DNA from: Ureibacillus sp.
Lineage (GTDB): Bacteria > Bacillota > Bacilli > Bacillales_A > Planococcaceae
DNA length: 44,861 nt
Direction of reading: 5' to 3'
Assembly (NCBI GenBank): GCA_031178355.1
Contig: JAPSJC010000014.1
Location: forward strand, 1 to 44,861
The notes under the pieces are model-generated. The model was not told the DNA's origin, did not search any database, and saw only the letters and a program-made list of their open reading frames with translations. The translations under genes and the position numbers were made by a program. Shown here one piece after another: positions 23,331 through 34,864 of the stretch (position 1 is its first letter; every line of letters starts with the position of its first letter).

Positions 23331-24389
23331 ATGGAATTAGGATTAACTACATTTGTTGAAACAACTCCTGACGTCAATACAGGAGAAGTGAAAAGTCACG
23401 CGGAACGTTTACGTGAGGTTTTAGAAGAGATTATTTTAGCTGATGAAGTTGGTTTAGATATTTTTGGAGTTGGAGAACATCATCGTAAAGATTATGCGTG
23501 TTCTACCCCGGCCGTTTTATTAGCGGCTGCAGCAGCGAGAACGAAAAATATTCGACTTTCTAGCGCTGTAACTGTTCTTTCGTCAGATGATCCTGTACGT
23601 GTATTCCAAGAATTTTCTACGGTTGATGCGATTTCAAATGGACGTGCTGAAATCATGGCAGGACGCGGTTCATTTATTGAGTCGTTTCCGCTTTTTGGAT
23701 ACGATTTAAAAGACTATGATGAATTATTTGATGAAAAATTAGATTTACTACTAAAAATTCGAGAGAACGAAATTGTGAATTGGGAAGGTAAACATCGCCC
23801 ATCTATACATAATCGAGGAGTTTACCCCCGACCAGTACAAGATCCGTTACCAGTTTGGATTGCTAGTGGCGGAACACCACAATCAGTAGTTCGGGCAGGT
23901 GCCCTAGGGTTACCGTTAGCATTAGCAATAATTGGAGGAAGTCCACTTCAATTTGCCCCGCTTGTTAACCTTTACTATAAAGCAGCACAACAAGCCGGAC
24001 ACGATAAGTCAAAATTAACTGTTGCAACACATTCACATGGCTTTATTGCTGATACAACAGAAATAGCAATAGATAAATTCTTCCCTCCTACCCAATATGC
24101 AATGTCCAAAATTGGACGAGAACGTGGATGGGGTGATTACACAAGAGCGACTTTTGATCATGCAAGAAGTTTAGAAGGTGCTTTATATGTAGGTGATGTG
24201 AAAACTGTCGCAGAGAAGATTATTTTCCTTCGTAAGAATGTCGGTGTGACACGTTTTATGCTTCACTGTCCTGTTGGATCAATGCCACATGAAGATGTCA
24301 TGAGAGCCATTGAGCTTTTAGGTAAAGAAGTTGCTCCTATTGTGCGTGAGGAAGTAGCAAAATGGGAATTGGAGAATTCAGAAAAATAA
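23331..24389 (+). CDS. LLM-class flavin-dependent oxidoreductase
   Basis: A 352-residue bacterial-luciferase-like protein, an FMN- or F420-dependent TIM-barrel oxidoreductase. Family marks are GLDIFGVGEHHRKDY (about 40-54), the RLSSAVTVLSSDDPVRVFQ segment, GRAEIMAGRGSF and the C-terminal GALYVGDVKTVAEKI. Members of this group are usually putative oxidoreductases of unknown substrate. AGGAGG precedes the ATG by 8 bases. It is monocistronic. It is only distantly similar to the two LLM proteins in the sulfur operon, so its function should not be assumed to be the same. Confidence 0.88.
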   Translation: MELGLTTFVETTPDVNTGEVKSHAERLREVLEEIILADEVGLDIFGVGEHHRKDYACSTPAVLLAAAAARTKNIRLSSAVTVLSSDDPVRVFQEFSTVDAISNGRAEIMAGRGSFIESFPLFGYDLKDYDELFDEKLDLLLKIRENEIVNWEGKHRPSIHNRGVYPRPVQDPLPVWIASGGTPQSVVRAGALGLPLALAIIGGSPLQFAPLVNLYYKAAQQAGHDKSKLTVATHSHGFIADTTEIAIDKFFPPTQYAMSKIGRERGWGDYTRATFDHARSLEGALYVGDVKTVAEKIIFLRKNVGVTRFMLHCPVGSMPHEDVMRAIELLGKEVAPIVREEVAKWELENSEK

Positions 24390-24403
24390 CTCCAAATATT
24401 AGT

Positions 24404-24447
24404 AAAGAGTTGTTTTGTGGACTTTGTCTGTGGAACAGCTCTTTTTT
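24404..24447 (+). terminator. Terminator of the LLM oxidoreductase gene
   Basis: AAAGAGTTGTT (24404-24414) pairs with AACAGCTCTTT (24434-24444, one G-T pair), then T-run. Confidence 0.72.
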
Positions 24448-24706
24448 ATTTGAAAAAAAGATAAAAATGATCAATATGAACAAATATTTACATTTTGTGC
24501 ATTTTTGTCCGATAATAAGGGTATAACTATTTACTGAATGAATAAAAATCAGGAAATCCATATAACCTACAAATTAAATTTAAAAATTTACAAAGTTTAC
24601 ATCTAAAATTGAAAACATTTTATTGATAAATTCGTCTAATATATTGTTTGCATTTTCCAATACAAGGCAATTGGAATTTCATTATGTTTTATGTGGAGGC
24701 ATAAAC
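24448..24706. other. AT-rich leader before the glycosyltransferase gene
   Basis: About 260 bases, very AT-rich, with no other gene. The reading frame of the glycosyltransferase is open back to 24623, but those extra codons have no ribosome binding site or good start. Confidence 0.5.
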
Positions 24707-26008
24707 TTGAACTCTCAAATGACAACTTTTATAGAAAACTTTAATCTCCTCATGTTTTTCCTATTTGCATTTATGTATTTGTATCAAATGATTTATATGT
24801 TCATTGCATTTAAAGCAAAGAAGAGTGGTAAACATGGGAAAAAGGAGGGGAAATTTAACAGAATAGGCGTTCTAATTGCTGCAAGGAACGAAGAAGTCGT
24901 TATAGGACAATTGATTAAAAGTATAAAAGCACAAAATTACCCGAAAGAATTAATTGATATTTTTGTTGTTGCAGATAACTGTACAGACCATACTGCGCAT
25001 GTTGCAAAAAAAGAAGGCGCAATCGTTATGGAAAGGTTCAACAAAGAACTAGTGGGTAAGGGGTATGCTTTAGATTATATGTTGAAATTTATCGAAAAAG
25101 AATATTCCCATAAAGGGTATGATGGTTATCTTGTATTAGACGCAGATAATTTACTCGATAAAAACTATATTGTAGAAATGAATAATACATTTAACGAAGG
25201 TTATAGAGTGATTACGAGTTATCGTAATTCAAAAAATTATGATCAAAATTGGATTTCTGCAGGTTATGGCCTTTGGTTTTTACATGAAGCGGAGTATTTA
25301 AACTTACCAAGAATGAAGCTGAAAAACAGTTGTGCAATTTCTGGTACTGGATTCTTAGTAAAAGCAGACATATTTAAAGAAAATGGCGGTTGGATTCATC
25401 ATTTATTGACAGAGGATATTGAGTTTTCTGTTTCCCAAATTTTGAAAGGGGAAAAAATAGGGTATTGTCGAAATGCAGTGCTTTATGATGAACAACCGAT
25501 TACTTTTAAGCAATCTTGGCATCAGAGGTTGCGTTGGGCAAAAGGCTTTTATCAAGTTTTTAGTACCTATGGAAAAAGGCTAATAAGTGGTATCCTATTC
25601 AATAGAGGCAATCGATTTTCTTGTTATGATATGACCATGACATTAATGCCAGCCATGTTAATAACATGTTTTAGTATAGTAGTGAACAGTAGCTTTTATT
25701 TAGCAGCAATTCTTGGATTTATTGTTGAAAAGGAAATTATTTTCGTTACTACTATTTCAATATTAAAATCGTTTATATGGTACTACAGTATTTTATTTAT
25801 AATTGGCTTCATAACGACGATATCAGAATGGAATAGAATCCATTGTTCTAATTGGAAAAAAGTGATGTATTCTTTCACATTCCCACTGTTTATGTTTACG
25901 TATATTCCAATTGCCATTGTGGCCTTATTTAAGAAAGTTGAATGGAAACCCATTGCACATACAGTTTCAAAATCTGTTGAAGAAGTATTAGAAAATGTAA
26001 AGAATTAG
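24707..26008 (+). CDS. Membrane family-2 glycosyltransferase
   Basis: A 433-residue processive-type GT2 enzyme. One membrane helix at about 13-36 is followed by the catalytic domain and three to four C-terminal helices (about 295-415). The catalytic motifs are in order: IAARNEEVVIGQLI, VVADNCTDHT, LDADN (DxD, 144-148), TED (235-237) and QRLRW (QxxRW, 273-277). This set is typical of enzymes making beta-linked polysaccharide such as poly-N-acetylglucosamine or hyaluronan-like chains. The sugar cannot be told. The start is TTG 24707 because GGAGG lies 7 bases upstream. No export or modifying partner genes are adjacent. Confidence 0.88.
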   Translation: MNSQMTTFIENFNLLMFFLFAFMYLYQMIYMFIAFKAKKSGKHGKKEGKFNRIGVLIAARNEEVVIGQLIKSIKAQNYPKELIDIFVVADNCTDHTAHVAKKEGAIVMERFNKELVGKGYALDYMLKFIEKEYSHKGYDGYLVLDADNLLDKNYIVEMNNTFNEGYRVITSYRNSKNYDQNWISAGYGLWFLHEAEYLNLPRMKLKNSCAISGTGFLVKADIFKENGGWIHHLLTEDIEFSVSQILKGEKIGYCRNAVLYDEQPITFKQSWHQRLRWAKGFYQVFSTYGKRLISGILFNRGNRFSCYDMTMTLMPAMLITCFSIVVNSSFYLAAILGFIVEKEIIFVTTISILKSFIWYYSILFIIGFITTISEWNRIHCSNWKKVMYSFTFPLFMFTYIPIAIVALFKKVEWKPIAHTVSKSVEEVLENVKN

Positions 26009-26016
26009 TCAAATTT

Positions 26017-26057
26017 AAAAAGCTACACTCGCTATGTAAGCAAGTGTAGCTTTTTAA
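26017..26057 (+). terminator. Terminator of the glycosyltransferase gene
   Basis: AAAAAGCTACACT (26017-26029) pairs with AGTGTAGCTTTTT (26043-26055), followed by TT. Confidence 0.88.
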
Positions 26058-26207
26058 TTTATTGGATTCATTTCATACCGGTACTGTGTACAGTAAAACA
26101 TCATTTCAACATAGAAAACTAGGTTGTGTGTAGTAACAAATCATACTTTTAGTTTAAATAAATACGACTTGAGACTTAGTCAAATTACATATGGAGGTCA
26201 TGTTGTA

Positions 26208-26261
26208 ATGAAGTACGTTCTACTATTATTTAATTACAGAAAGTATTTGAAAGGGAGATAA
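26208..26261 (+). CDS. Possible 17-residue leader peptide before the DUF4097 gene
   Basis: A short frame (MKYVLLLFNYRKYLKGR) with GGAGG 9 bases before its ATG. Its stop codon lies 2 bases before the TTG start of the DUF4097 gene and within the latter's ribosome binding region (GGGAGATAAAATTG), so translation could be coupled. It may equally be chance. Not recognised. Confidence 0.35.
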   Translation: MKYVLLLFNYRKYLKGR

Positions 26262-26263
26262 AA

Positions 26264-27037
26264 TTGAAAAAGTCTTATATCGTCATCCTACTTGTTATAC
26301 TTATTGGCATTAGTCTGGTTAATGTCGTTGCGGGGTTCTTTACTTACGGAGGGAAAGAAGAAATTGAAATTCGCAATGGCGGTTTTAGCCATGTTGAAAT
26401 CGATACAAAAAATGCCGAGATTAATTTACTTGTAACAAATGACAGACCATACGTAGAGCTATTAAACAAAGGTAGCTATGATTTAAAAGTAGAGGTTGAA
26501 GGAAATACACTTGATATCGAAGTAAACAAAAAATGGTTTAATTTGTTTTCTTTTAATCTATTCTTTCATTCTCCAACGTTAAATGTATACCTTCCTGAAA
26601 ATGTTTATGAAACGATTCAATCAGAAACAGACAATGGGTCAGTCTATGTAACAAATCTTAAGGTGAATGAGTTAAATGTGGAGACAAATAACGGAAAAGT
26701 TCTTGTAAGGGATGTGGAAAGTTCATATCTATATTTGAGTTCAAATAATGGTGATGTTAACTTAGAAAATGTTGAAGGAAAGATCATTGGTGAAACGAAT
26801 AATGGAGATGTTACCATTCAAAAAAGTATACTCAACCAGCCAATCGAACTTAAAACAGATAATGGGAATGTTTCTATAATTACTAACGAGGAACCAACAA
26901 ATGTCACGTATCAATTTAAAACTCATAATGGTGATATTACAGTATTTGGCTCGGAACATTTTGAAACAGTTGTAGGAGATGGTAAATATTTAATACAGCT
27001 AACGTCTCATAATGGAAATATTACAATAAAAAAGTAA
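26264..27037 (+). CDS. Anchored DUF4097 beta-solenoid protein
   Basis: A 257-residue protein with an N-terminal signal-anchor (SYIVILLVILIGISLVNVVAGFF, residues 3-25) and an extracellular right-handed beta-solenoid. The repeats show a short N-G-x-V motif: DNGSV, NNGKV, NNGDV, NNGDV, DNGNV, HNGDI, HNGNI (about 125-255), the DUF4097 pattern seen in LiaG-like proteins. This family often sits with envelope-stress genes, but none are adjacent here. The start is TTG with AAGGGAG 6 bases upstream. The function is unknown; an envelope role is inferred only from location and fold. Confidence 0.85.
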   Translation: MKKSYIVILLVILIGISLVNVVAGFFTYGGKEEIEIRNGGFSHVEIDTKNAEINLLVTNDRPYVELLNKGSYDLKVEVEGNTLDIEVNKKWFNLFSFNLFFHSPTLNVYLPENVYETIQSETDNGSVYVTNLKVNELNVETNNGKVLVRDVESSYLYLSSNNGDVNLENVEGKIIGETNNGDVTIQKSILNQPIELKTDNGNVSIITNEEPTNVTYQFKTHNGDITVFGSEHFETVVGDGKYLIQLTSHNGNITIKK

Positions 27038-27047
27038 TAATGAATTG

Positions 27048-27085
27048 AAAGGCTTAATCGGTTTTGCTGGTTAAGCCCTTTCTAA
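27048..27085 (+). terminator. Terminator of the DUF4097 gene
   Basis: AAAGGCTTAA (27048-27057) pairs with TTAAGCCCTTT (27071-27081, one bulge), then TCTAAT. Confidence 0.68.
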
Positions 27086-27179
27086 TAATTTTGTATTATT
27101 TGAATTATAGAATAATATATTTACATATGTAGTGTCTTAGTTTGGATGTTGTAAAGTAAACGGATAAAGGTGAGTTTTA

Positions 27180-29549
27180 ATGAATGATTTATATGTAATA
27201 GAAGTAAATAGGTGTTATACGGAAGCAGAGCAGAAGGCATTGCAGTATCTTCTTAATTTACAGGGACAAATTCGAGAACAATCTTATATCCAAACATTAA
27301 CAAAAGACATTCGGTCATGGAAAAAGAATCATGTTCGTACGAATATACTGTCATTAATACAGAGTCGAAATGATAAAACTTCGAGCTTAAATTACCATCA
27401 GTATATTGATTGGCTTGAAAATAAAGGGAAACTTAAGAACTATTTAGAGCGAAGTGTTTCGTATATTTTTTTACGTGACTTAGGTAAAAGCTTAGATTCT
27501 AAGGATACCGAACTAAGAATCCAGGAGATTGTTCATAATTTAATCGAACAAATGAAAAATCCATCTAAGAATGATGGTTTCACTGATTTATTCAGTTATA
27601 GAGGAATGTATCGTAAATCCCAAGAAGAACAAGTCGAATCAACGATGATTTGGTTATTCGAAAAACTTCAAATGGTAACGAGGAACCTTCCTGAGGAAAT
27701 GGATGCATTAAATGCAAGAAGGAAGCTTATTAAAATCATTGCTGGAGTTATGATGCATGTGAATGAAGAATTGGACGATTCTTATTCCGATAAGGAACGT
27801 GCCAAAAAATTCGAAGAAGCGATTCGTTTAGGTTATTCTTATGGTTTAACCTATCCATTTATAGATGATTTGCTAGACTCTAATGTACTAGATCCTGAAG
27901 AAAAAAAGCGTTATTCTAGCTTAATTCGAGACACGTTAACGACAGGTGTAGTGCCGGATTTTGGTAAGTGGGATGGCAAAAATGAATCCCTTATGCATTA
28001 TATTCATGCTGAATTGAAGGAAGCCTTTTTATATTTAAAAAGCTACCAACAAGAACAATCGAAATTTTATGAGCAGGCTTATGTGTTTTTCCAATCACAA
28101 GAAGTAGATCGAAACAAAAATCTAAACGTACCTCACTATACAAATGAAGATTTGTTTATCCCAGTTATTTTGAAATCATCATCATCAAGGCTGATTGCTC
28201 GAACGATGATCAATGCGGAACAAGATGAAGACTTTGAAGAAAGAACATTTTTATACGGTATCTACAATCAGTTAGCTGATGATTTTGCGGATATGTTTCA
28301 AGATGAAAAAGATGGTGCCGTTACACCTTATACGTATTTCTTAAAATATCATAAAAAGAGAGAGGATTTAATTAATCCCTTTGAAATGTATTGGACAGTC
28401 ATCTCGAACTTAATCCATCATGTATATCATGCTAACGATAAAACTCGCGAAGTAATATTGGATAGAGCGATTAACGGATTAAAACGCTTTAAGGAGAAGC
28501 ATGGGAAAGAAACCTTTAAAAATGTAATGACAATTTTTGCATTAAGTAATTCCAAGTTTCAAAAGCTTATAGAACAAATGGTTAATAAAGCAGATGATGT
28601 AGATTTTTATGATAAGCTCTTGCGAGACCAGATGTTAAATTCCTTTAAAAAAGAGAAACAGGAACAAGAAGAGTTCTCAAAAACAATTAAGGAAGTACAA
28701 AACAAAATTAATGCAAACTTAAAAATTCATTCAGATAATCAGCAAATGATTGTGAAAGAATCAGTGCTTGAGGCTGCTAATTATAGTTTGGAAACCGGTG
28801 GTAAACGATTACGTCCAATTATGACCTGGTTTATGGGTGTGAGAGTATATGGTTTAAATGAATCTCACTTATACCCACTTCTTAAATCACTAGAATATAT
28901 GCACACGGCATCATTAATTTTTGACGATTTACCTTCACAAGATAGTGCTTCAACACGTCGTGGCCATGCCACTGTTCATCAAATATATAATGTGGCTACT
29001 GCTGAATTAGCAGGGCTCTACTTAACCCAAAAGGCATTTGAAGAGCAAGCATCATTGGAGAATTTTGAGCCTAAGTCAGTATTAAAGCTAGTTCAATACT
29101 CAGCTAGAGTGACAGCTGAAATGTGTCAAGGTCAAGCAATGGACTTAGAATCTAAGGGGAAATCTCTTTCATTACATGAGTTAAATACGATTAGTTTTTA
29201 TAAGACTGGTTTAGGATTTGAAGCTTGTCTTGTGATGCCGGCGATCTTATCGAATGCTCAAGAAGAGGAAATAGACTCTTTGAAATTGTTTGCTAAACAT
29301 GCCGGAATTGCATTTCAGATTAAAGATGATTTATTGGATGTAGAGGGTGATTCCATGCAACTTGGAAAAATGGTGGGTATCGATGTGGAAAATAACAATT
29401 CGACTTTTGTTTCAATTTTAGGGTTAGATGGTGCGAAACAACAAATGTGGGATCACTATTGCCAAGCAATGGAATCATTAGATACTATCTCTCGAAATAC
29501 CTCCTTCCTTAAGCATTTTTTAAACTATATCGTGCATAGAGAAAAATGA
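27180..29549 (+). CDS. Two-domain isoprenoid-synthase-like protein with C-terminal polyprenyl diphosphate synthase
   Basis: A 789-residue protein, far longer than a normal polyprenyl synthase (about 300-350). Residues about 505-789 are a trans-polyprenyl diphosphate synthase: GGKRLRP (540-546), first Asp-rich motif DDLPSQD (582-588), RRGHATVH, and second motif FQIKDDLLD (712-720). The residues 4 and 5 before the first motif are small (S578, A577), which in this family allows longer products. The first 480 residues are all-helical and contain their own pair, FIDDLLD (D229, D230, D233) and QLADDFADMFQDE (D367, D368, D371). The spacing between pairs is 138 residues there and 134 in the C-terminal half, suggesting a second class I isoprenoid-synthase fold, perhaps a terpene synthase. 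AAAGGTGAG precedes the ATG. Confidence 0.85.
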   Translation: MNDLYVIEVNRCYTEAEQKALQYLLNLQGQIREQSYIQTLTKDIRSWKKNHVRTNILSLIQSRNDKTSSLNYHQYIDWLENKGKLKNYLERSVSYIFLRDLGKSLDSKDTELRIQEIVHNLIEQMKNPSKNDGFTDLFSYRGMYRKSQEEQVESTMIWLFEKLQMVTRNLPEEMDALNARRKLIKIIAGVMMHVNEELDDSYSDKERAKKFEEAIRLGYSYGLTYPFIDDLLDSNVLDPEEKKRYSSLIRDTLTTGVVPDFGKWDGKNESLMHYIHAELKEAFLYLKSYQQEQSKFYEQAYVFFQSQEVDRNKNLNVPHYTNEDLFIPVILKSSSSRLIARTMINAEQDEDFEERTFLYGIYNQLADDFADMFQDEKDGAVTPYTYFLKYHKKREDLINPFEMYWTVISNLIHHVYHANDKTREVILDRAINGLKRFKEKHGKETFKNVMTIFALSNSKFQKLIEQMVNKADDVDFYDKLLRDQMLNSFKKEKQEQEEFSKTIKEVQNKINANLKIHSDNQQMIVKESVLEAANYSLETGGKRLRPIMTWFMGVRVYGLNESHLYPLLKSLEYMHTASLIFDDLPSQDSASTRRGHATVHQIYNVATAELAGLYLTQKAFEEQASLENFEPKSVLKLVQYSARVTAEMCQGQAMDLESKGKSLSLHELNTISFYKTGLGFEACLVMPAILSNAQEEEIDSLKLFAKHAGIAFQIKDDLLDVEGDSMQLGKMVGIDVENNNSTFVSILGLDGAKQQMWDHYCQAMESLDTISRNTSFLKHFLNYIVHREK

Positions 29550-29550
29550 T

Positions 29551-29585
29551 AACAAACCCTTCCTAAAAGTTAGGAAGGGTTTGTT
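29551..29585. terminator. Bidirectional terminator
   Basis: AACAAACCCTTCCTAA (29551-29566) and its complement (29570-29585) form a perfect 16-bp stem with a 3-base loop. It lies 1 base after the upstream stop codon and overlaps the stop of the convergent transporter gene. Confidence 0.85.
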
Positions 29586-30495
29586 ATGTAACGGATGATT
29601 CTGTTGTCTTTCTTTCTATTAAAGAATGTCGTTTGCCAAAGTAATTTACGATAATGACTCCAGTAATAGCAATGACACCACCAGTAATGGAAAGCATAGA
29701 AGGTAGTTCGCTTATCCAGATCCAAGCCACAATGATTGCAATGACAGGCTCTAAGTACAATACACTCGATATGGAGCTAGCAGTAGTTAAAGATAAAGCG
29801 ATTGCCCAAGTTAAGTAAGCAATAGCAGTGGGGAAAATTCCAATATATACCGCGGTCATATTGGCTTCAATAGTTGCGTTTTGAATCGTTTCAAGCAAGC
29901 CAGGTGTGAAAATGAAAAATGGGATTGTTCCAGCCCAAGTAAAATACGCCGTTAATTCAATAGCTGTATATTTCTTAAATAAAGGCTTTTGAAAAACGAA
30001 AAATAAAGAAGTAGCAATTGCTGCGAAAATAATAAGTACAACGCCAGGAGAAATACCAAAGGAATCACCTGCGCCAATTGAGATAATGACAATCCCAATG
30101 AGCCCGAATCCAAGCCCCGCCCATCCAATTTTCCCCAATCGTTCTTTTAAGAACCACATGGCAAAAAGTGTTGTGAAAATCGGACCAGAACCTATTAATA
30201 ACCCAGCTGTACCAGCACTAACTGTTATTTGTCCAAAAGTGGCGCAAATATGATAGCCACTAATACCTAAAATACCTAGCAATAAAATTTTTAAGAGATC
30301 TTCTTTAGCAGGTAATCTAAATTTGACAACTGGTAAAAGTGCGATGAAGATAAAAATCATGGAGGCGATAACAAAACGAAATAAGATTAAATGTCCTGCA
30401 GAGTATCCCCCCTGCAAAGTAACGCTATTTGCTGCGAAGGTCGATCCCCATATAAATACAGTTAGGAGCGCTAACAGTAACGCTTTTGAATTCAT
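29584..30495 (-). CDS. EamA-family (DMT) transporter
   Basis: A 303-residue inner-membrane transporter with ten predicted helices in two EamA repeats. The first repeat starts with LLLALLTVFIWGSTFAANSV and the second around SFGISPGVVLIIFAAIATSLFFVFQKP, ending in YLEPVIAIIVAWIWISELPS. Such drug/metabolite transporters export amino acids or other small metabolites; the substrate cannot be told. The ATG at 30495 gives the standard N-terminus; a TTG seven codons upstream lacks a ribosome binding site. Confidence 0.88.
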   Translation of the reverse strand: MNSKALLLALLTVFIWGSTFAANSVTLQGGYSAGHLILFRFVIASMIFIFIALLPVVKFRLPAKEDLLKILLLGILGISGYHICATFGQITVSAGTAGLLIGSGPIFTTLFAMWFLKERLGKIGWAGLGFGLIGIVIISIGAGDSFGISPGVVLIIFAAIATSLFFVFQKPLFKKYTAIELTAYFTWAGTIPFFIFTPGLLETIQNATIEANMTAVYIGIFPTAIAYLTWAIALSLTTASSISSVLYLEPVIAIIVAWIWISELPSMLSITGGVIAITGVIIVNYFGKRHSLIERKTTESSVT

Positions 30496-30620
30496 TTTTC
30501 TACACCATTCTTTCAATAGTTCATAGACTACATCTTCTCATGACAGATATGTATTTTTCAAGACTTCATTTTGAGCCGTTGAAAAGGTTAATTTATATTC
30601 TTTAAATGAACATGAAAAAA

Positions 30621-30643
30621 TCCCTTCGCTTATAACGAAGGGA
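30621..30643 (-). terminator. Terminator of cotJABC
   Basis: TCCCTTCG and CGAAGGGA pair; on the minus strand TTTTTTC follows, 10 bases after cotJC. Confidence 0.82.
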
Positions 30644-30653
30644 AGCCACATTA

Positions 30654-31223
30654 TTAGTATACTTTCTTTTTACCTTGTTCATCTTTCAATATTTCAACAG
30701 CCTCTCTAAATCTTAAAGAATGAATTACTTCACGTTCACGTAAAAACTTCAATCCGTCATTTAAGTCCGGATCGTCTGACATATCAATAATCCACTGGTA
30801 TGTTGCGCGGGCTTTTTCCTCAGCGGCAATATCTTCATATAGATCTGCTATTGGGTCCCCTTTTGCTTGAATATAGGAAGCAGTCCATGGAACACCTGAA
30901 GCATTATGATAATATAACGCCCGATCATGATTGGCATAATGATCACCTAGACCGGCAGCTTTCATTTGTTCTGGTGTAGCATCTTTTGTGAGTTTGTAAA
31001 TCATCGTCGCAATCATTTCAAGATGTGAAAACTCTTCCATTGCGATGTCATTTAGAAGACCAATAACTTTATCTGGAATAGTATAACGCTGATTCATATA
31101 GCGTAGAGCGGCAGCAAGTTCTCCATCTGCCCCACCATATTGCTCTATTAGGAATTTTGCCAACATTGGATTACATGTACTAACCCTTACAGGATATTGG
31201 AGCTTTTTTTCATAATAAAACAT
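30654..31223 (-). CDS. cotJC: Spore coat protein CotJC (manganese-catalase-like)
   Basis: A 189-residue ferritin-like four-helix protein related to manganese catalases and a polypeptide of the spore coat. Family marks are MFYYEKKLQYPVRV at the start, GGADGELAAALRYMNQRY, the metal-binding EEFSHLE, DIAAEEKARATYQW and REREVIHSLRF, supplying the Glu/His ligands of the two-metal site. It is the last gene of cotJA-cotJB-cotJC, 77 bases after cotJB. In B. subtilis the operon is made in the mother cell under sigma-E. Confidence 0.95.
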   Translation of the reverse strand: MFYYEKKLQYPVRVSTCNPMLAKFLIEQYGGADGELAAALRYMNQRYTIPDKVIGLLNDIAMEEFSHLEMIATMIYKLTKDATPEQMKAAGLGDHYANHDRALYYHNASGVPWTASYIQAKGDPIADLYEDIAAEEKARATYQWIIDMSDDPDLNDGLKFLREREVIHSLRFREAVEILKDEQGKKKVY

Positions 31224-31300
31224 GAATTAATCACTTCCCTCACTTTTCAATTCACTACATCTTTAGGATTAATATGCAAAAGACCAATATGAAAACATTT

Positions 31301-31564
31301 TTACACTTGCCATGGCCAAGGTGAATCATCAAGGTCCCATGGATAATTAGAATAACTTTTTCCGAAATTCATTAAAGGTCCAAATTGCTTTTCAAATTCA
31401 ACTTTAAGATGCATAGAAATTTGGGTAGCTTCGTTATATTGTTTGATAGCTTCCATATCATGAGGGTGTGTGTCTAAATAAAGATTCAAGTCAACAATCA
31501 CAAAATCAATGGCTTGAATTTCTTCAAGTAGCTTGTAATACTCAGGTGGCATTTGTTTCGTCAC
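31301..31564 (-). CDS. cotJB: Spore coat protein CotJB
   Basis: An 87-residue coat protein. The family core, YKLLEEIQAIDFVIVDLNLYLDTHP and later the tyrosine/tryptophan-rich end YSNYPWDLDDSPWPWQV, is clear. The start is GTG overlapping the cotJA stop codon (GTGA), with AAGGAG 10 bases upstream, so translation is coupled to cotJA. It acts with CotJA and CotJC in coat assembly. Confidence 0.94.
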   Translation of the reverse strand: MTKQMPPEYYKLLEEIQAIDFVIVDLNLYLDTHPHDMEAIKQYNEATQISMHLKVEFEKQFGPLMNFGKSYSNYPWDLDDSPWPWQV

Positions 31565-31785
31565 GGTTTTTCCACTCCTTTATTCGGATCTGGATAAGGG
31601 CTATATAATTGTGGCCAAAGTGTACCGTGCATTAATGCTTGTTTGGGAGATTGGAATTGTGGTAATCCAGGTGGTTGAAAATTCATATATAAGTGCGGAG
31701 GTGTTGAGTAACTTTTTACACGTATTGGTTTACATGGATCATAGGGACTGACATAGGGACGCCAATACTTGAACTGAGAATGCAT
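31561..31785 (-). CDS. cotJA: Spore coat-associated protein CotJA
   Basis: A 74-residue proline- and tyrosine-rich protein of the CotJA family (KYWRPYVSPYDPCKPIRVKSY, then PPGLPQFQSPKQALMHGTLWP). It is needed for CotJC incorporation in B. subtilis. The start at 31785 is chosen because GAGGAGG lies 5 bases upstream; the frame is open ten codons further but without a site. It is the first gene of the cotJ operon. Confidence 0.93.
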   Translation of the reverse strand: MHSQFKYWRPYVSPYDPCKPIRVKSYSTPPHLYMNFQPPGLPQFQSPKQALMHGTLWPQLYSPYPDPNKGVEKP

Positions 31786-31818
31786 GTAATCCTCCTCTCG
31801 GTTTCTCAATACCAAGTT

Positions 31819-31848
31819 ATATATATGTTGGTTATAGTAAATCTATTC
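31819..31848 (-). promoter_or_regulatory. Possible sigma-E promoter of cotJ
   Basis: On the minus strand GAATAGA (31848-31842), a 14-base spacer and CATATATAT (31827-31819) resemble the sigma-E pattern, ending 34 bases before cotJA. B. subtilis cotJ is sigma-E dependent. Confidence 0.42.
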
Positions 31849-31983
31849 ATTTTATTTACTTTGAATTTTTAAGATAACGAAAGTTGAAATGAAATTTGGT
31901 TAAGAGCTGAATTGAAAACGACTTTTCATGTTGATATTGAGGATGTTTTAATTAGAACGATTAATGAAAATAAAAATAAAGTT

Positions 31984-32029
31984 AGGACTACATTTTCATG
32001 GGATGGCCATAGTAATGTAGTCCTTTTTA
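31984..32029 (-). terminator. Terminator of the double-CMD gene, possibly bidirectional
   Basis: AGGACTACATT (31984-31994) and AATGTAGTCCT (32014-32024) pair perfectly with a 19-base loop. T-rich tails follow on both strands. On the minus strand it lies just after the double-CMD gene. Confidence 0.72.
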
Positions 32030-32052
32030 TATTGTTAATGGAAATTAGTCAT

Positions 32053-32706
32053 CTATTCATTGTAGCTTTCAATCATATTAATCATATGGGCATATGCTCC
32101 ACCTGCGCATAATGCTGCTGATACTAATACAGCTTCTGCAAGTTCTTCATTTGTAGCACCTTTATTTATAGCATTGTTAGAGTGTACGTCAATACAATTA
32201 GGGCATTGTGTAACTGTAGCAACTGCTACTGCAATGATTTCTTTGAATTTTGTAGTAAGGTGGCCTTCTTTCATGGCAATCGCACTAAAGTTTGAGTATC
32301 CTTTAAATCCATCAGGTGCAAATTTACCAAGCTCTTCTAAATAACTTAAGTTTGCACGACTATATAATTCATCAGATGTATGTTTCTTCCTGGCATTGTG
32401 ACTATGGGTATTATGTGTTACGACTCCACCAGCTTCTATAGCCATTGCAACAAAAACCGCTTCAACTAACTCTGAAAGTGTCGCACCAACAACTTTAGCT
32501 TTTTTCGTATGGGTATCAATACAGTAAGGGCATTCAGTTACATGTGAAATAGCAACTGCAATAATTTCTTTTTCTTTTTTTGTAAGAGCGCCTGCCTTTA
32601 AGACAGCAGCATCAAATTGATAAAATGCTTTTAATTGTTCAGGAGCAAGATTTTTTAACTCGTAAATATTTTTAGATTTACTTTTGTCATAGTAGTTTTC
32701 CGACAT
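32053..32706 (-). CDS. Tandem carboxymuconolactone-decarboxylase/AhpD-like protein
   Basis: A 217-residue protein made of two CMD domains. Each has the AhpD-type redox motif: CPYCIDTHTKKA (about 57-68) and CPNCIDVHSNNA (about 171-182), each preceded by KEIIAVAI/V and a Glu. Single-domain relatives act as alkylhydroperoxidase partners or peroxide-sensing reductases using the CxxC pair. Here one chain holds two, probably replacing a dimer. AAGGAG precedes the ATG. Role in peroxide defence is likely but not shown; the neighbours are spore genes. Confidence 0.88.
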   Translation of the reverse strand: MSENYYDKSKSKNIYELKNLAPEQLKAFYQFDAAVLKAGALTKKEKEIIAVAISHVTECPYCIDTHTKKAKVVGATLSELVEAVFVAMAIEAGGVVTHNTHSHNARKKHTSDELYSRANLSYLEELGKFAPDGFKGYSNFSAIAMKEGHLTTKFKEIIAVAVATVTQCPNCIDVHSNNAINKGATNEELAEAVLVSAALCAGGAYAHMINMIESYNE

Positions 32707-32901
32707 GATTAAACTCCTTGGATTTTAAATGGATATTAAGGTTGGTGATTTTCCCTTATTATACATAATACTTTCTTATAATATTAAGTTTTTTACTTGT
32801 CCCTAGTTGTCAAGTAATTTAATAATAAAAACACAATGACACTTTAATCCTTTGAAATAAGCAAACCTACAATTATTCCGCAAGATTACAAGAATGTCTT
32901 G

Positions 32902-32930
32902 GAATCTTAACCGCTTAATCGACATAGTAT
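32902..32930 (+). promoter_or_regulatory. Possible sigma-E promoter of prkA
   Basis: GAATCTT (32902-32908), a 14-base spacer and CATAGTAT (32923-32930) resemble the sigma-E pattern. It ends 38 bases before the prkA reading frame; prkA is sigma-E dependent in B. subtilis. Confidence 0.45.
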
Positions 32931-32968
32931 GTTTAATAAACCATGCCATGTGAAATGGAGGGAATACT

Positions 32969-34864
32969 ATCGATATTTTAAATAAGGTAAGAAAATACCG
33001 TGACGATGAGGACAGGTTAAAGTGGGAAGGGACTTTCGCGCAATATTTAGAACTTATTAAGGAAAGACCAGAAATTGCTCAAACAGCTCACTCTCGTGTT
33101 TACAGTATGATTAAAACAGCTGGTGTAGAAGAGTTTGACAGCCAAAAGTCATATAATTTTTTTAATAGAGAAATGTATGGGTTAGAATCAGCACTAGAAC
33201 GCTTAGTAGAGGAATATTTCCATCCAGCAGCAAGAAGACTTGATGTTCGTAAACGTATATTGTTATTGATGGGTCCAGTTAGTGGTGGTAAATCTACCAT
33301 TGTTACGATGTTAAAAAGAGGTTTGGAACAGTTTTCTAGAACGGATGAAGGTGCTGTTTATGCGATAAAAGGGTGCCCGATGCATGAAGATCCGTTGCAT
33401 CTTATTCCGCATCATTTAAGAAATGACTTTTATGAAGAATATGGGATTCGTATCGAAGGAAGTTTGTCTCCATTAAATACGATGCGTCTTGAACAGGAGT
33501 ATGGTGGTCGTATTGAAGATGTGTTGATTGAACGTATATTCTTCTCAGAAGATAGACGAGTTGGTATTGGTACGTTTACACCATCTGATCCTAAATCACA
33601 AGATATTGCGGATTTAACAGGTAGTATTGATTTCTCAACAATTGCAGAGTATGGTTCAGAATCTGATCCACGTGCTTATCGTTTTGACGGGGAGCTTAAT
33701 AAGGCAAACCGAGGTATGATGGAGTTCCAGGAAATGCTGAAATTAGATGAGAAGTTCTTATGGCATCTATTATCTTTAACACAGGAAGGGAATTTCAAGG
33801 CTGGTCGTTTTGCCTTAATTTCAGCCGATGAACTGATTGTGGCGCATACGAATGAAACGGAGTACCGTAGCTTTATTTCAAATAAAAAGAACGAAGCGCT
33901 TCACTCTCGTATTATTGTAATACCAATTCCTTATAATTTAAAGGTCAGTGAGGAAGAACGAATTTATCAAAAGATGATACGTGAAAGTGATATGGCACAT
34001 GTTCATATTGCACCTCACGCTTTACGAGCAGCAGCAATCTTTTCGGTACTAACGAGGCTGGAAGTTCCGAAGAAACAAGGCATTGATTTACTGAAAAAGA
34101 TGCGCTTGTACGATGGTGAAAATGTAGAGGGCTTTAATGATGTAGATGTTCAAGAATTGAAAAAAGAGTTTCCGAACGAAGGGATGCATGGTATTGATCC
34201 AAGGTACATCATCAATAGAATTTCATCTGCAATCATTCGTAAGGAAGTACCATCAATCAATGCGTTAGATGTGTTACGTTCATTAAAAGATGGACTCGAT
34301 CAGCATCCATCCATCTCTCAAGAAGATCGAGAAAAGTATATCAATTATATAGCTGTTGCTAGACGTGAGTACGATGAAATAGCGAAAAATGAAGTTCAAA
34401 AAGCCTTTGTTTACTCCTATGAGGAATCTGCAAAACACCTAATGAATAACTATCTTGATAACGTAGAGGCATTTTGTAATAAAAATAAACTTCGCGATCA
34501 ATTAACAGGCGAGGAAATGAATCCAGATGAAAAATTAATGCGCTCCATTGAAGAACAAATTGGAGTTTCGGAAAATGCGAAAAAGGCATTCCGAGAAGAA
34601 ATCTTAATTCGCTTATCCGCCTATGCAAGAAAGGGACAACGTTTTGACTACAATTCTCATGAAAGATTACGAGAAGCGATTCAGAAGAAGTTATTTGCTG
34701 ACTTGAAAGATATCGTAAAAATTACAACGTCGTCAAAAACACCAGATGAATCACAACTTAAGAAAATTAACGAAGTTGTTGCCACGCTAGTTGACGAATA
34801 TGGTTACAACACAACAAGTGCCAATGAGTTGCTACGCTATGTAGGAAGTCTTTTAAACAGATAA
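32969..34864 (+). CDS. prkA: Serine protein kinase PrkA, apparent ATC start
   Basis: A 631-residue AAA+/kinase-like protein needed for sporulation and stress control in Bacillus; exactly the B. subtilis PrkA length if started at 32969. Marks are the conserved N-terminus (DILNKVRKYRDDEDRLKWEG), Walker A GPVSGGKST (about 102-110), the LTGSIDFSTIAEYGSESDPRAY segment, and the C-terminal PrkA domain ending LLRYVGSLLNR. There is no ATG, GTG or TTG in frame between the TGA at 32951 and the ATG at 33107. The conserved N-terminus begins at an ATC where others have ATG. GGAGGG lies 6 bases before that ATC. Starting at 33107 would lose 46 conserved residues. Either ATC is used or the start was mutated. 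Confidence 0.93.
   Translation: MDILNKVRKYRDDEDRLKWEGTFAQYLELIKERPEIAQTAHSRVYSMIKTAGVEEFDSQKSYNFFNREMYGLESALERLVEEYFHPAARRLDVRKRILLLMGPVSGGKSTIVTMLKRGLEQFSRTDEGAVYAIKGCPMHEDPLHLIPHHLRNDFYEEYGIRIEGSLSPLNTMRLEQEYGGRIEDVLIERIFFSEDRRVGIGTFTPSDPKSQDIADLTGSIDFSTIAEYGSESDPRAYRFDGELNKANRGMMEFQEMLKLDEKFLWHLLSLTQEGNFKAGRFALISADELIVAHTNETEYRSFISNKKNEALHSRIIVIPIPYNLKVSEEERIYQKMIRESDMAHVHIAPHALRAAAIFSVLTRLEVPKKQGIDLLKKMRLYDGENVEGFNDVDVQELKKEFPNEGMHGIDPRYIINRISSAIIRKEVPSINALDVLRSLKDGLDQHPSISQEDREKYINYIAVARREYDEIAKNEVQKAFVYSYEESAKHLMNNYLDNVEAFCNKNKLRDQLTGEEMNPDEKLMRSIEEQIGVSENAKKAFREEILIRLSAYARKGQRFDYNSHERLREAIQKKLFADLKDIVKITTSSKTPDESQLKKINEVVATLVDEYGYNTTSANELLRYVGSLLNR

Follow-up and report, generated by a model that had tools for sequence, protein, structure and literature searches.

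Chimeric terpene synthases which produce their own substrate have been described in fungi. These proteins of about 700 amino acids, the PTTS, make geranylgeranyl diphosphate (GGPP) or geranylfarnesyl diphosphate (GFPP) from isopentenyl diphosphate (IPP) and dimethylallyl diphosphate (DMAPP) and convert them into di- or sesterterpenes. In the accessible sections of a paper from 2021 they are called unique to fungi (PMC8307374). Here we describe a gene of Ureibacillus sp. which encodes a bacterial fusion protein of similar outline. The gene is located in a stretch of 44,861 nucleotides (contig JAPSJC010000014.1), which we will call the window from now on. We consider it moderately probable that its product is a bacterial chimeric terpene synthase, in which the N-terminal domain (N-domain) would act on a prenyl diphosphate longer than C15, most likely GGPP, made by the C-terminal domain (C-domain).

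Two further groups of enzymes are relevant for comparison. Type II GGPP synthases are recognized by a two-residue insertion in the first Asp-rich motif and by the absence of an aromatic residue at position −4 or −5 (PMC7261888, in the part available). Non-canonical class I terpene synthases (IB to IF) possess a class I-like predicted fold without recognizable similarity to the canonical enzymes. The available part of the corresponding article contains no mention of a fusion to a prenyl synthase (PMC11234867).

Domain organization of the fusion protein

The gene and its domains and motifs are located in the window as follows.

27180..29549, + strand: whole fusion gene, encoding a two-domain protein of 789 amino acids with an N-terminal class I synthase-like and a C-terminal trans-prenyl diphosphate synthase domain (open reading frame, PF00348 match, models)
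27180..28649, + strand: N-domain, residues 1-490, with a predicted all-helical class I terpene/isoprenoid synthase-like fold, outside named sequence families (model)
27864..27878, + strand: first Asp-rich motif of the N-domain, DDLLD, residues 229-233 (invariant Asp; C-terminal end of a helix in the model)
28266..28304, + strand: second Asp-rich motif of the N-domain, NQLADDFADMFQD, residues 363-375, of the DDxxDxxxD type (conservation; weak PF00348 match)
28608..28718, + strand: linker, residues 477-513, predicted as one continuous helix between the domains (whole-protein model)
28671..29546, + strand: C-domain, a trans-prenyl diphosphate synthase domain, about residues 498-789
28908..28913, + strand: chain-length residues A577 and S578, at positions −5 and −4 relative to DDLPSQD of the C-domain (conservation, published rule)
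28923..28943, + strand: first Asp-rich motif of the C-domain, DDLPSQD, residues 582-588 (sequence, conservation)
29325..29339, + strand: second Asp-rich motif of the C-domain, DDLLD, residues 716-720 (sequence, conservation)

The original prediction for this gene had correctly given the open reading frame of 789 amino acids, the motif positions (DDLLD at 229-233, QLADDFAD at 364-371, D582 and D716) and the motif spacing, with 138 residues from D229 to D367 and 134 from D582 to D716. Its C-terminal prenyl synthase was likewise found (PF00348), while the end of the N-domain had to be moved from residue 480 to about residue 490. As a small correction, the motif starting at D582 has the form DDxxxxD (DDLPSQD) and not DDxxD.

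The C-domain matched PF00348 over residues 528-764 with 187.3 bits (cut-off 27, E 3.7e-55). None of the 16 prenyl synthase models of NCBIfam listed for it reached its cut-off. The best of these was FPPsyn with 228 bits (cut-off 275), and the curated GGPP synthase models NF045685 (CrtE) and NF041003 gave 178 versus 460 bits and 127 versus 500 bits, respectively. The residues K542, R545, H575, R593 and R594 are invariant and align with IspA-like proteins. Such basic residues and the histidine have IPP-binding roles. To the closest single-domain proteins in genomes of the same genus the C-domain is 35–41% identical. It carries the signature of a type II GGPP synthase: its first motif is longer by two residues, and neither −4 nor −5 is aromatic. 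The IspA-like protein of the same genome has Y and S in place of A577 and S578. The earlier suggestion that small residues before the first motif permit a longer chain thus agrees with the published rule, as far as its text was available, and with this tyrosine (PMC7261888). Overall, the C-domain resembles the type II GGPP synthases (CrtE) in its DDxxxxD first motif, its DDxxD second motif, the missing aromatic residues, the IPP-binding residues and the predicted fold. It differs from them by its fusion to a second domain and by a score below the cut-off of the CrtE model.

Sequence searches with the N-terminal 490 residues gave no significant match in Pfam, NCBIfam, PHROGs or the PDB sequences, i.e. 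none among solved structures, and a plasmid collection contained no match to the N-domain or to its standalone relative L098 (see below). Of 26 N-domains, 11 gave a weak PF00348 signal, with E 0.0016 at best. For the window protein this signal spans residues 345-377, over the second Asp-rich motif. At E up to 1 the window protein matched neither the Pfam terpene synthase models nor PF10776 (DUF2600/YtpB, class IB) nor PF00494 (squalene/phytoene synthases), and no terpene synthase model was present among the families listed for the 26 N-domains (25 of a total of 33). Comparison by hhalign revealed no similarity between the N- and the C-domain. Against the N-domain, small profiles built for the prenyl synthase, squalene/phytoene synthase and DUF2600 families reached a probability of at most 12.6%, which says little, since these three families also fail to join each other (at most 8.3%). 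A profile of three standalone relatives alone reached 36.6% with squalene/phytoene synthases, over 60 columns at the second motif. By eye, the N-domain has no copy of the IPP-binding motifs of the C-domain.

The structural model of the N-domain (predicted local distance difference test (pLDDT) 88, predicted template modeling score (pTM) 0.88) exhibits a class I isoprenoid/terpene synthase fold. The class I alpha-domain fold of canonical class I terpene synthases is therefore predicted for it, as is the isoprenoid-synthase fold which had been proposed for the N-terminal half. The 50 matches listed by VIA-align 2 were terpene synthases; chain-elongating or squalene synthases were absent from these 50, which does not exclude unlisted families. 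In the Foldseek search most of the top rows were chain-elongating synthases, and human squalene synthase appeared at rank 2 (E 0.014) and in 5 of the 50 listed rows. In the model of the whole protein (pLDDT 87.5, pTM 0.84) the helix 477-513 bridges the domains, whose relative orientation is uncertain because the model came without an inter-domain error.

The fusion protein shares with the PTTS the arrangement of an N-terminal class I synthase, here by predicted fold only, and a C-terminal trans-prenyltransferase in one chain (789 versus about 700 amino acids; PMC8307374, accessible sections). It differs by its bacterial origin, by an N-domain without Pfam terpene synthase match and by the predicted helical linker. 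Furthermore, the synthase domain of the PTTS contains DDxxD/E and NSE/DTE motifs, whereas the bacterial N-domain has DDLLD and a second motif of the DDxxDxxxD type. Since NSE/DTE is absent, we do not assign the protein to the PTTS despite the resemblance in outline. The motifs given in the available text for class IB (DYLDNLXD and DY(F,L,W)IDXXED) and class ID (D(N/D), ND, RXXKD) also differ from those of the N-domain (PMC11234867).

Conservation and distribution

Conservation was determined in an alignment of 86 rows, some of which repeat the same genome; 58 rows are less than 93% identical to each other. In the N-domain, D229, D230, D233, N363, Q364, D367, D368 and D371 were identical in 86/86 rows, as was the whole stretch from N363 through D368, while D375 was found in 85/86. 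The DDLLD and DDxxD residues of the original prediction are therefore conserved in the homologues. D310, R311, K332, R337 and R341 were likewise invariant. The same holds for D582, D583, D588, D716, D717 and D720 of the C-domain, in which S578 was present in all rows and A577 in 85 of the 86. All invariant motif positions of both domains were also invariant in the subset of 58 rows. Such constancy exceeds what chance would produce. The ratio of nonsynonymous to synonymous substitutions (dN/dS) versus two relatives of the same genus was 0.063 and 0.095 for the N-terminal and 0.052 and 0.073 for the C-terminal part, at synonymous sites near saturation.

The fusion was present in 23 of 61 genomes (the own genome and 60 relatives). 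Within the genus it occurred in 21/25 genomes, the own one counted; in one of these the gene is truncated by the end of the contig. Other genera of the family contributed 1 of 12 genomes and other families of the class 1 of 24. Named carriers (13 loci) are Ureibacillus, Psychrobacillus, Robertmurraya, Sporosarcina, Niallia, Bacillus, Paenibacillus and an uncultured Bacillaceae, and all 13 proteins have a length of 784-794 amino acids. When searched with the N-domain profile, the class set of 398 genomes yielded 43 with a match, distributed over 12 of 145 genera, and the phylum set, also of 398 genomes, yielded 9; the two sets overlap. All 43 class matches belong to open frames encoding 776-841 residues, and the alignment across both domains includes 42. 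Apparently, the fusion is constant in this class.

One match of the phylum set, L076, was a standalone protein of at least 397 amino acids (contig end; E 7.6e-6 with the N-domain profile). Starting from L076, two further standalone relatives were found, L098 (419 amino acids) and L128 (411 amino acids). None of these proteins of about 400 amino acids from other Bacillota matched a Pfam family at E up to 1. Conversely, a profile of L076 and L098 matched fusion N-domains in 4 of 348 genomes (E 6e-9 to 3e-4). The kinship rests on these two profile searches; the hhalign score between N-domain and standalone proteins is not independent, because the standalone proteins sat in both profiles. Both Asp-rich motif sites persist, slightly changed, in L076, L098 and L128. 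The standalone relatives are thus akin to the fusion N-domain in sequence and motif sites, but unfused. Open reading frames whose products resemble transposases are located near L098 (3508-4188) and L128 (3-896 and 2976-4160).

Gene neighborhood

No neighboring gene was conserved across 33 loci, which include repeats from the same genome (e.g. L036/L095 and L042/L096); the commonest cluster occurred in 8 of them. A terminator scan revealed these hairpins next to the fusion gene.

27051..27077, + strand: 12-pair terminator-like hairpin which separates the DUF4097 and fusion genes
29549..29587, − strand only: 18-pair terminator-like hairpin located where the fusion and EamA genes converge

The region contains 4 terminator-like sites compared to 1.7 ± 1.5 expected. 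The upstream hairpin was recognizable by eye in 5 of 6 upstream regions of the same genus and has diverged in L005. Ahead of the start codon, AAAGGTGA was identical in 6/6 of these regions. They (window and L002-L006) also have in common a ATAATATA-like stretch, located about 60 bp before the start codon (about 27108-27122 in the window), which is a possible −10 element of a promoter. As judged from the sequence, the fusion gene is likely a lone transcription unit.

We rejected the idea that the fusion is functionally linked to the luciferase-like gene upstream. This gene precedes the fusion gene in 8/33 loci, yet four of four genomes of the genus without the fusion also carry it (82–84% identity). 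Three of three non-carriers of the genus (L155, L156 and L157; genomes of 3.0–3.3 Mb) have kept both the luciferase-like and the PrkA gene, and their 12-kb stretches contained no match to the fusion, glycosyltransferase, DUF4097, EamA, Mn-catalase and CMD genes. We read the genes between luciferase-like and PrkA gene (24389-33107 of the window compared) as an accessory block which may have been gained or lost together.

A cytochrome P450 gene (PF00067; 19848-21110, + strand) is located about 6 kb upstream of the fusion gene in the window, and one is also found upstream in G002 (L158, 70% identity). It possibly encodes a tailoring enzyme, yet no neighbor is kept across the 33 loci. On the other side, a short manganese-catalase-like protein of 189 amino acids (PF05067) is encoded at 30654-31223 (− strand), with an open reading frame of 87 amino acids beyond it. 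We take this protein to resemble the spore-coat protein CotJC. The fusion gene may adjoin sporulation genes.

The possibility that the fusion replaces YtpB (DUF2600) was rejected, as 39 of 43 fusion-carrying genomes also have a DUF2600 match; the own genome showed none at E 0.001 (assembly 76% complete). The latter contains a separate gene of the squalene/phytoene synthase family (PF00494; G000:C124:15983-16570), which was also present in 15/15 genomes of the genus searched.

Proposed reaction and alternatives

In the proposed reaction the C-domain would couple IPP to an allylic diphosphate, either DMAPP or a longer one. The resulting prenyl diphosphate would exceed C15, being most likely GGPP (or GFPP), and would be handed over to the N-domain. 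There, its diphosphate group and Mg2+ would be bound by the motifs DDLLD and DDxxDxxxD. The N-domain would then ionize this product and cyclize or rearrange the resulting cation to a terpene hydrocarbon or alcohol. Since it is devoid of the IPP-binding motifs of the C-domain, it would use a single allylic diphosphate without chain extension. No partner genes are conserved, and therefore the fusion enzyme probably works alone. A precedent exists for the assignment by fold: at least three of six protein types which lack recognizable sequence similarity and were picked by class I-like predicted structure were terpene synthases, and three were inactive in one test (PMC11234867, available part). 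By analogy, this raises the prior for the N-domain as a terpene synthase, without being a proof.

Other functions of the N-domain were considered. Hydrolysis of the C-domain product to a prenol, or transfer of the prenyl group to another acceptor, appears rather unlikely to us. Class I folds serve both reactions, YisP reportedly hydrolyzes a prenyl diphosphate to the prenol, and the neighborhood offers no conserved terpene-tailoring genes. Moreover, prenyl transfer was proposed for GroH, a protein resembling terpene synthases (PMC12105684, in the part available). However, no pointer to an acceptor site was found in the sequence, and the constant fusion to a GGPP synthase-like domain together with the many invariant residues outside the Asp-rich motifs suggests a shaped pocket. 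Head-to-head condensation of two prenyl diphosphates from the C-domain, as performed by squalene/phytoene synthases, is also an unlikely role. Both motifs of the N-domain have the DxxxD form, and DxxxD motifs are also used by the squalene/phytoene synthase family. Human squalene synthase was among the best Foldseek matches, and this family was the best hint for the profile of the standalone relatives (about 37%, at the second motif). In contrast, PF00494 did not match the window protein, the VIA-align 2 matches listed were terpene synthases, with the limit given above, and the neighboring genes are not conserved.

Finally, the N-domain might be a non-catalytic partner which regulates the C-domain or sets its chain length. 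The small subunits of heterodimeric prenyl synthases, which act in this way, share the fold, and most of the top Foldseek rows were chain-elongating synthases. For such a partner, loss of the Asp residues would be expected, but those of both motifs are invariant in the alignment and the sites persist in the three standalone relatives. We regard this role as highly improbable.

Taking the N-domain as a terpene synthase, we tentatively propose that the fusions form the first family of chimeric terpene synthases in bacteria. It would comprise a new family of class I cyclases, which in Bacilli was found only as a fusion to a GGPP synthase-like domain, occurs in at least seven families of Bacillota, forms a diterpene or sesterterpene outside any gene cluster and is convergent with the fungal PTTS. 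In the literature search, judged by titles and the opening lines of abstracts, no report of the bacterial fusion was recognized; subscription journals and preprints lay largely outside this search. The available text of an article on terpene genes of endospore formers, two Lysinibacillus included, does not contain the words 'polyprenyl synthetase' or 'domain' (PMC12654598). Within the literature searched, the original prediction of an undescribed system is therefore upheld for the bacterial fusion, but not for the architecture, which is known from the fungal PTTS.

If the proposal is correct, the enzyme should need only IPP and DMAPP, and its product could therefore be sought by expression of one gene in E. 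coli. Pfam and NCBIfam models recognize the fusion only as a prenyl synthetase; hence, searches with these models would miss the terpene synthase. Many Bacillus-like bacteria would possess a self-sufficient terpene synthase, and the PTTS architecture would extend to bacteria, most simply by independent invention.
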